Source: an uncultured Synergistales bacterium (GTDB lineage Bacteria; Synergistota; Synergistia; Synergistales; Aminobacteriaceae). From it: 37,344 nt of DNA. A program made the translations under genes and the position numbers. The notes under the pieces were generated by a model. It worked only from the letters and a program-made list of their open reading frames with translations, had not been told where the DNA came from and made no database searches. How positions within the stretch are numbered: the stretch's first letter is position 1; each line of letters begins with the position of its first letter. The DNA is taken from contig CAJOLN010000027.1 in assembly GCA_905235395.1 (NCBI GenBank), positions 1 through 37,344 of the forward strand, in the 5' to 3' direction. Positions 7,033 to 13,258 of this stretch are shown one piece after another.

Positions 7033-8157
<1,125 letters not shown>

Positions 8158-8222
8158 TTAGATTGCGTATATTATAGCAACAGTGAGAATGAAAAAATTA
8201 TTTTTGCATAGGAGTTTTCAAT

Positions 8223-9053
8223 TTGGCAGATAAAGACATGACAGAGAAAACGCTTTTAGGATTCAATGATGTGTTTGCTGATGTGGTGAATGCATTCTTT
8301 GCTATTTCGGGTATTAACCGAAGGATAGCTCCCGATGAACTTGAAGACGCACGCACATGGTCGATGTATAAAGCTGAAGATAAATTGCGTGAACAGGAAC
8401 GCGATGTGATGAAGCTATGGAAGTCAGAAGGTGCTGTGATAAGTCTTATAGGTTTGGAGAATCAGAGCGATGTTGATTCTGATATGGCACTTCGTATATT
8501 TGGTTATGAAGGAGCCGATTACAGAGGGCAGTTATCACGTAAGGTAAAAGAACCTTATTTTGTGATGACGATTGTGTTATATTACGGGACAGAAAAACGA
8601 TGGAATGTACCAAAGAGTTTATTTGAGCGTCTTAATGTTCCTGAAGAATTTCGTCCATTCGTTAATGATATTCATGTTAATGTTCTGGAGCTTGCGTGGC
8701 TCACTGATGAACAGGCTGATATGTTCAAGGGCGATTTTAGAATCGTTGTTGATTTTTTGCGTCATGCCCGCAAAGGTGATGATTATGTACCCAGTGAGGC
8801 AGAGATAAAGCATATCGATGAAATTCTGAAGCTGATGCGTGTTATGACAGGCGACAGAAGATTTGAAGAAGTGCTAAACACTGCACCGAACAAAAAAGGA
8901 GAGAGGCAAATGGTAAAGAGCTATTTTGATGTTGTAGAGGAAAAAGGCAGAGCAGAAGGTAAAGCTGAAGCAATTCGTGAAATAATGCAGCGTTTAATTG
9001 AAAGAGGCATATCACCAGAAGAAGCAGCAGCTATAACAAGTTTATCTGAGTGA
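8223..9053 (+). CDS. Rpn family (PD-(D/E)XK) recombination-promoting nuclease / putative transposase; TTG start
   Basis: KTLLGFNDVFADVVNAFF...LIGLENQSDVDSDMALRIFGYEGADYRGQL...PYFVMTIVLYYGTEKRW...; C-terminal EEKGRAEGKAEAIREIMQRLIERGISPEEAAAIT; RBS aggag before TTG. Confidence 0.85.
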   Translation: MADKDMTEKTLLGFNDVFADVVNAFFAISGINRRIAPDELEDARTWSMYKAEDKLREQERDVMKLWKSEGAVISLIGLENQSDVDSDMALRIFGYEGADYRGQLSRKVKEPYFVMTIVLYYGTEKRWNVPKSLFERLNVPEEFRPFVNDIHVNVLELAWLTDEQADMFKGDFRIVVDFLRHARKGDDYVPSEAEIKHIDEILKLMRVMTGDRRFEEVLNTAPNKKGERQMVKSYFDVVEEKGRAEGKAEAIREIMQRLIERGISPEEAAAITSLSE

Positions 9054-9185
9054 ATCAAAATTTAGTGCAAAAAATTTCGCAGGGTGTTAATATATCTTGC
9101 GCTTACACTCAAAGCTACGAATATCGCTCTCTGGATTGGCGTTGTTCCTGGCTCTGAAGTTATATCACAGGAGGTTTATTTATTC

Positions 9186-11363: not shown

Positions 11364-12444
11364 CATGAATATAGAACCAAAGTTACAGGCAATAGAGCAG
11401 GAATATAACGAGACATCAAAGAAACTGGAAGACCCTGATGTAATATCAAATCCTAAAGAGCTTCAGATACTCGGCAAGAAACGTGCACAGCTTGAACCCG
11501 TAGTAAGCAAGTATCAAGAATACAAAGACGCATTGAAATCTATCGCCGAAGCCAAAGAGTTAATCAAATCTGGAGATTCGGAACTTGAATCATTAGCGCG
11601 TGAGGAACTTGCATCTCTTGAACCTAAAATTGAAAGTTTCACTCACGATTTAACATTGCTTCTTCTTCCTCAAGACCCTAATGATGAGAAAAGCGTTGTA
11701 GTTGAAATTCGAGCGGGTACAGGAGGAGATGAAGCTACACTCTTTGCGGCAGACCTCTTCAGAATGTACGTGAGATTCTGTGAACGTCAGCGGTGGAAGA
11801 TTGAAGTGATTGACAGTTCAACGAACACTGCGGGCATTGGAGGCTATAAGGAAATAGTCTTCAGGATTGATTCACGAGGAGCATACAGCAAGATGAAATA
11901 TGAATCAGGGGTTCACAGAGTTCAACGCGTTCCTGTTACTGAGGCAAGCGGACGAATTCACACAAGTGCGGCAACAGTTGCAGTTCTTCCTGAAGCAGAT
12001 GATGTTGAAGTTGAGATACGTCCCGAAGATTTGAAGATTGATACATATCGTTCAAGCGGTGCAGGTGGTCAGCACGTCAACATGACAGACAGCGCAGTTC
12101 GCATTACGCATTTGCCTACGGGAATAGTAGTAACGTGTCAGGATGAACGCTCGCAAATAAAGAACCGTGCACGTGCAATGTCGTATCTGAAGACTAAACT
12201 ATTTGACCTCGAACAGCAGAAACAGAATTCAGAACAGGCAAGTGAAAGACGCGGTATGATTGGATCAGGTGACAGAAGTGAACGTGTACGCACATACAAT
12301 TTTCCGCAAAACAGAATTACGGATCACAGAATCAATCTCACACTCTATAAGCTCGAATCATATTTAGACGGAGATTTATACGAGATGATTGACGCTATGC
12401 TCCTCGCTGAACAGACACAAAAGTTGCAAGACCTTGAAGGTTAG
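11356..12444 (+). CDS. prfA: peptide chain release factor 1 (TTG at 11356 or ATG at 11365)
   Basis: RAGTGGDEATLFA; HRVQRVPVTEASGRIHTSAATVAV (PVT = RF1-type PxT); YRSSGAGGQHVN; GSGDRSERVRTYNFPQNRITDHRI. Confidence 0.95.
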   Translation: MNDMNIEPKLQAIEQEYNETSKKLEDPDVISNPKELQILGKKRAQLEPVVSKYQEYKDALKSIAEAKELIKSGDSELESLAREELASLEPKIESFTHDLTLLLLPQDPNDEKSVVVEIRAGTGGDEATLFAADLFRMYVRFCERQRWKIEVIDSSTNTAGIGGYKEIVFRIDSRGAYSKMKYESGVHRVQRVPVTEASGRIHTSAATVAVLPEADDVEVEIRPEDLKIDTYRSSGAGGQHVNMTDSAVRITHLPTGIVVTCQDERSQIKNRARAMSYLKTKLFDLEQQKQNSEQASERRGMIGSGDRSERVRTYNFPQNRITDHRINLTLYKLESYLDGDLYEMIDAMLLAEQTQKLQDLEG

Positions 12445-13258
12445 TGATTACGTTAAACGCCTCGAACATGAAGACATTCAGAACGCAGGACAGGAATCAT
12501 TATGGCTAATCTCTCATGCTCTGGGCATATCTCATTCAGCCGTACTCACGAAGAATACACTTTCTGATGATGAATGCACAAAGATTGAAGATGTAATTTC
12601 GAGACGCATTAAGGGTGAACCATTGCAGTACATTCTTGGTGAAACAGACTTCTACGGAAGAGATTTTCATGTTGGAAGAGGCGTATTGATTCCGAGACAT
12701 GACACAGAAACTCTCATTGAGGCCATGAAATTTTTTGCGAAGCCCGATGAGAGTTTTTGCTTTGCCGATTGGGGAACAGGTTCAGGCTGTATTGCAATAA
12801 CCATAATGCTTGAGTTCCCGCATTCATTTGCATACATGATTGAACAGAGTGAAGACGCAATCACATTCGCTCGAATAAATCTCGAACGCTATAATGTAAT
12901 TCACAGAGCAAAAATCATTTCACGACTCGAAGATGTGAATCGCAAGTGCAGATTCATTTTGAGCAACCCTCCGTACATATCTTCAGATGAAATTGACAGA
13001 CTCATGAAGACAGTGCGGGATTATGAGCCTCATGTTGCGTTAGACGGAGGCAATGACGGAATGAATTTTTACAGGCTCATCATGAATCGTTCAATGAGTG
13101 TGCTTGATGATGACGGCTATCTGATTTTCGAGACTGGCAATATGAATCAGGTTCATGCGTTAGAATCTGTTAGTGATAATTTCATGTTCGTGCGTGAATT
13201 TCATGATTCAAATAATTTTCCGAGATGTATAGCTCTAAAGAGGAGAGTGAATGAATGA
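12434..13258 (+). CDS. prmC: peptide chain release factor N5-glutamine methyltransferase (start uncertain; ORF open from 12389, overlaps prfA)
   Basis: KGEPLQYILGETDFYGRDFHVGRGVLIPRHDTETLI...DWGTGSGCIAI...FILSNPPYISSDEI...ALDGGNDGM. Confidence 0.92.
   Translation: MKVSDYVKRLEHEDIQNAGQESLWLISHALGISHSAVLTKNTLSDDECTKIEDVISRRIKGEPLQYILGETDFYGRDFHVGRGVLIPRHDTETLIEAMKFFAKPDESFCFADWGTGSGCIAITIMLEFPHSFAYMIEQSEDAITFARINLERYNVIHRAKIISRLEDVNRKCRFILSNPPYISSDEIDRLMKTVRDYEPHVALDGGNDGMNFYRLIMNRSMSVLDDDGYLIFETGNMNQVHALESVSDNFMFVREFHDSNNFPRCIALKRRVNE

Follow-up and report, generated by a model that had tools for sequence, protein, structure and literature searches.

Gene-within-gene toxin–antitoxin systems of the RpnL/RpnS type were described by Zhong et al. 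in 2023 (PMC10327210). In E. coli, the internal starts of rpnA, rpnB, rpnC, and rpnE were established by profiling and blots, and a short internal transcript was seen for E. coli rpn (PMC10327210). The small proteins of RpnA, RpnB, and RpnP2 block toxicity, SOS induction, or cleavage; RpnS binds RpnL via the tail in a 2+2 complex, in which cleavage is blocked (PMC10327210). In the case of C. difficile Rpn, cloning into E. coli showed that internal initiation yields a small protein (PMC10327210). The gene-within-gene design is already known, with experimental proof from several E. coli genes and a single one of C. difficile. What is added here is evidence that the internal start is under selection across Synergistota, together with the free-standing copies that mark the first residue and the extension to the PF12784 nucleases.

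The rpn gene of the window

The window analyzed here is a stretch of 37,344 nucleotides from the genome of an uncultured Synergistales bacterium of the gut. On its forward strand, the ORF at positions 8223–9053 begins with TTG and encodes 276 aa; it was read as rpn, the gene of the full-length nuclease RpnL, from its match to PF04754 and its hhalign alignment with E. coli RpnA. The match to PF04754 (Transposase_31/YhgA-like) reached 38.4 bits, above the curated cut-off of 21. With TIGR01784, the NCBI 'Rpn family' subfamily model, the score was 24.8 bits, below the curated cut-off of 52.1, the tail alone being matched, and thus the protein was not filed in that subfamily. The hhalign comparison gave a probability of 94.6, and D61, E79, and Q81 of the window protein were aligned with D63, E82, and Q84 of RpnA. 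On the forward strand, the codon of Asp61, opposite the catalytic Asp63, lies at 8403–8405, and the codons of Glu79-Asn80-Gln81, which align with Glu82-His-Gln84 of the PD-(D/E)XK site, lie at 8457–8465. Among 21 homologues, E79 and Q81 were invariant and D61 was nearly so. As RpnA D63A, E82A, and Q84K are each inactive (PMC5350276), the window RpnL, in which the same residues are aligned, is probably an active endonuclease. Tyr was found at codon 61, where the catalytic Asp is expected, in rpn of a goat relative (L032), in whose genome rpnS is also present as a free-standing copy; a similar pairing is seen in E. coli, where ypaA lies downstream of rpnE, a gene with an annotation as inactive. 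Of the named relatives of the MAG that contains the window, the closest are a Synergistales genome associated with reindeer (95% identity) and a Synergistaceae genome from goat abomasum. The MAG itself holds one gene of the window's rpn group and two PF12784 nuclease genes.

The strength of each Shine–Dalgarno sequence (SD) was expressed as its duplex energy with the 16S tail (SD:anti-SD dG, kcal/mol). The SD of RpnL is AGGAG at 8210–8214 on the forward strand, with the TTG 8 nt 3' of it; its dG of −6.8 is weaker than that of the internal SD. The latter, AAGGAG at 8896–8901 on the same strand (−9.3), sits inside AAAAAAGGAGAGAGG with its core AGGAG at 8897–8901, and is followed, 8 nt past AGGAG, by an ATG at 8910–8912 in frame with the rpn ORF. 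The predicted gene of the internal protein, rpnS, extends from 8910 to 9053 on the forward strand and was assigned from the sequence, the comparative tests, the duplicates in relatives, and the predicted helices. A preliminary description had placed the core motif, its spacing, and the in-frame ATG inside the Rpn ORF at exactly these positions, and translation from 8910 gives the 47-aa C-terminal product that it proposed. By analogy with E. coli, the 47-aa RpnS is probably an antitoxin, and the same segment probably also acts as the C-terminal oligomerization domain of RpnL.

In its layout, the locus resembles E. coli RpnA-L/RpnA-S, as well as RpnB, RpnC, RpnE, and RpnP2: a PD-(D/E)XK nuclease ends in a charged helical tail of about 50–60 aa, immediately preceded by an SD and an in-frame ATG. 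This E. coli RpnS precedent, invoked in the preliminary description, is real (PMC10327210). E. coli RpnS proteins have 49–60 aa compared with 47 aa in the window, the catalytic D, E, and Q are aligned, and the SD strength is equal, the internal starts of E. coli rpnA, rpnB, rpnC, and rpnE giving −8.3 to −10.8 and that of the window −9.3 by the same measure. However, the window protein shares only ~21% identity with its E. coli counterpart over the aligned catalytic region, belongs to another phylum, and is known from sequence alone. Its SD also lies in another codon phase, TTG takes the place of ATG as the outer start, and its tail is almost without 4-aa repeats. C. difficile Rpn/RpnS likewise has an internal-start small protein in a distant phylum, a likeness drawn here from its description.

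The predicted internal start in the window and across Synergistota

In the window alone, the internal site was matched or bettered by 34% of the synonymous recodings of the same peptide, and a dG of −9.3 or better was found at 8 of the 290 internal in-frame ATGs of the window ORFs, although a few of these ATGs may be where the ORF really begins, its listed start lying too far 5'. Taken singly, the SD and ATG of the window are barely more than what chance would give. The preliminary description had argued from one well-placed SD; since these recodings and ATGs equal the site, that argument is by itself insufficient. The predicted unpaired fraction in the window was 0.77 for the internal SD versus 0.33 for the outer SD. 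A scan for internal promoters returned 4 promoter-like sites in the window against 2.5 ± 1.5 expected, and shuffled sequences did equally well.

Homologues were gathered on the similarity of their proteins, with no regard to the SD, and antisense ORFs that had entered the early homologue list (with a seed from L070) were left out of every test. The null was synonymous recoding with pooled codon usage, from which 500 null sums were obtained; it is conservative, since the peptide is held constant although any selection on the SD will have helped to shape it. An SD and start codon were present at the same domain boundary in 24 of 24 Synergistota homologues of the window's group. The summed SD strength of the 24 genes deviated from the null by z −6.6 and was reached by 0 of the 500 null sums. 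After removal of near-duplicates, all 21 remaining genes passed −8.5 kcal/mol, compared with 9.1 expected, and z was −5.8. When the whole gene was scanned in windows of 11 codons, only the RpnL start and the RpnS site stood out, and no other internal window had z below −3.

The SD occupied all three codon phases across the 24 genes (17, 5, and 2 genes), and the residues encoded at the SD varied among KGE, GGE, GEE, ERR, KEE, and QGG. The internal start codon was ATG in 22 genes, GTG in one, and TTG in one, at a spacing of 6–11 nt from the SD, most commonly 8. The residues change while the SD and start stay; conservation acts on the DNA and not on the peptide. The preliminary description had held that homologues retaining the protein but lacking the SD and ATG would speak against an internal gene, and 0 of the 24 homologues were of this kind. 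Its toxin/antitoxin-like, gene-within-gene reading gains support from the 24 homologues together with free-standing tails that begin at the Met. As judged from these comparisons, which are decisive on this point, the internal start signal is maintained by selection in the distant phylum Synergistota.

The mean SD energy in the homologues was −11.0 for RpnS versus −8.2 for RpnL. Of 21 outer starts, 13 were TTG or GTG; of 24 inner starts, 22 were ATG. The contrast between outer and inner starts is suggestive, as the outer ones were picked by score, and the genome-wide start-codon baseline was not properly measured. Together with the more open inner SD of the window, these values suggest that initiation may favor the antitoxin over the nuclease.

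Free-standing tail copies and competing explanations

A second, separate tail copy was located just downstream of rpn in three relatives, namely, G034 (L032), G038 (L011), and G018 (L112). The copies of G038 and G018 are near-identical to the parent tail, their homology begins at the internal ATG, and they have fewer 4-aa repeat units, being 8 and 40 residues shorter, respectively. The copy of G034 has diverged from its parent, and its reading frame overlaps the stop codon of rpn. One further tail copy, in G037 (L114), belongs to the sister nuclease family PF12784. Because the free-standing copies begin there, the predicted internal start has been used as a gene boundary in evolution at least four times. 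E. coli ypaA (rpnE-S), a downstream duplicate of the tail, is matched in these four relatives; a copy of this kind is absent from the window, and no free-standing rpnS remnant was found in it. The 3' end of rpn and its flank in the window (9020–9095) resemble the end of the second tail copy of L032 (2075–2160 of that locus), which suggests that tail copies may have recombined with each other.

The 4-aa repeats, which in RpnL/RpnS systems stand early in the tail and vary in number, are clear in relatives; in the window tail, no more than roughly a single unit (GRAEGKAE) can be made out. The AF2 model of the 47-aa tail contained helices at residues 5–31 and 36–45 with a pLDDT of 75; nothing significant was found among its PDB matches, and two helices were predicted compared with three in RpnA-S. 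The full-length AF2 model, built from 4 sequences, was poor (pLDDT 55), and its comparison with the PDB gave no significant match. A PDB sequence search with the profile retrieved designed helical proteins only, and the tail of RpnA itself, used as a query, retrieved 7TH0, the entry of the three-helix RpnS dimer. The helical prediction is compatible with an RpnA-type contact but is no proof of the same contact.

The locus is very likely an RpnL/RpnS gene-within-gene toxin–antitoxin system of the kind that Zhong et al. reported in 2023. Less in line with this reading are the promoter scan at chance level, the near absence of 4-aa repeats, the two-helix tail model, the poor full-length model, and the ten nearby proteins scanned for defense genes, in which a single partial, methylase-like match was obtained. 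In such a system, ribosomes starting at TTG 8223 would produce the PD-(D/E)XK DNA endonuclease RpnL, and an independent start at ATG 8910 would produce just the helical tail of 47 aa. Once free, this tail would bind the same tail on full-length RpnL, a contact made in the E. coli 2+2 complex by the first long helix, and the tail-bound nuclease would be held inactive. If the balance of L to S or the complex were disturbed, for example by phage infection, the nuclease would be freed. Initiation at 8910, i.e., production of RpnS, is what we strongly infer from the sequence comparisons; the neutralization of RpnL by RpnS, its release, and phage defense we infer by homology with the E. coli systems.

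An SD and ATG at this place may also arise with no internal initiation, as the by-product of a structural Met and of a linker with many Lys, Gly, and Glu codons (AAR GGN GAR). The window alone would allow this, as 34% of recodings yield an equally good SD, but over the homologues the SD goes far beyond the needs of the peptide (z −6.6, and −5.8 in the non-redundant set). Moreover, the SD is kept in other phases with ERR, KEE, and QGG, a Val or Leu at the start position is encoded by GTG or TTG, and the free tail genes of relatives start at the same Met. The by-product explanation thus appears largely refuted by the comparison of homologues, and we consider it improbable. Should RpnS be produced, it may instead be an assembly subunit, comparable to Cas11d for Cas10d, which is required for nuclease activity or DNA binding. 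Small subunits from internal starts that aid a large partner are known (discussed in PMC10327210), and the RpnA tail is an oligomerization domain; the small proteins of E. coli RpnA, RpnB, and RpnP2 nevertheless inhibit (PMC10327210), and such a role is unlikely in the window, if slightly less so than a mere by-product. It is very improbable that the peptide is functionless and that the main role of the internal start is to aid a second cistron by coupling or to protect the mRNA by transcript shielding. Coupling is plausible in the goat relative, where the free rpnS overlaps the rpn stop codon (L032), but the tail has been duplicated at least four times as a separate coding gene with its frame kept, and the window rpn has no downstream partner gene.

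A broader form of the toxin–antitoxin reading can be proposed tentatively and is, taken as a whole, rather doubtful. The selected antitoxin start would be near-universal in PF04754 and PF12784, the dose would be set by the imbalance of initiation, and free copies would be spare or specificity-shifted antitoxins. As part of this joint proposal, the toxin dose would follow from the weakness of the outer start, in many cases TTG or GTG, relative to the strong ATG inside the gene, and copies with other repeat numbers would provide immunity to related Rpn nucleases or be a record of former tails. As regards the preferred RpnL/RpnS reading, Synergistota is a distant, largely uncultured phylum, and its transposase-annotated genes are probably self-contained toxin–antitoxin units. 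The recoding test, applied to the SD and start at the tail boundary, is applicable family-wide and predicts the exact small proteins that are missed by annotation pipelines.

Wider occurrence and genomic setting

Among distant Synergistota PF04754 genes with quite different tails, an SD and start were found just before the repeats in 20 of 22; the remaining two are fragmentary ORFs with the tail outside the fetched stretch, and many of the 22 are near-identical members of tandem arrays and not independent. The same arrangement was found in a viral contig (L123) and in an unannotated, phage-labelled contig from human feces. A relative of rpn with putative internal starts also occurs in another phylum, on the rumen Selenomonas ruminantium plasmid pSRC7 (NC_017077.1, L125), where the tail boundary has strong SDs ahead of TTG and GTG codons that are in frame. 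In the tandem rpn arrays of L103 (G081:C1:1890000-1902000) and L104 (G073), the nuclease domains are near-identical and the tails carry varying numbers of 4-aa repeats (GREEGRMEGRQEG...).

Genes of the PDDEXK_2 (PF12784) nucleases often have an SD and start before the tail as well. Among the Synergistota genes of this family that were examined, a strong in-frame SD and start near the tail were present in 35 of 45 (z −5.2). Unlike the window gene, they belong to a different Pfam family, their predicted internal product usually has about 90–120 aa, and the signal is less uniform. One such paralogue lies in the window's own genome (L186, G000:C49:9830-10555), with the SD AAAGGAG and an in-frame ATG that would give a 93-aa C-terminal product.

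The distribution of rpn is patchy: a match was found in 14 of the same-genus genomes and in the window's own genome. In the window, rpn lies between an rpiB-upp fusion gene and rpsO, and rpn-free rpiB-upp/rpsO junctions were found in at least six relatives (L131, L132, L134, L139, L144, and L146). Neighbors joined without rpn fit the single-gene gain and loss described for rpn. When a defense island was sought with PADLOC among ten nearby window proteins, only a partial match to 'mad2' (methylase-like) was obtained, for the ORF at 12389–13258; since this ORF is directly 3' of prfA, it was read as a housekeeping methyltransferase. The rpiB-upp fusion gene (7033–8127, reverse strand) carries the RpiB-type isomerase and uracil phosphoribosyltransferase domains in one ORF, and several relatives have the same arrangement.
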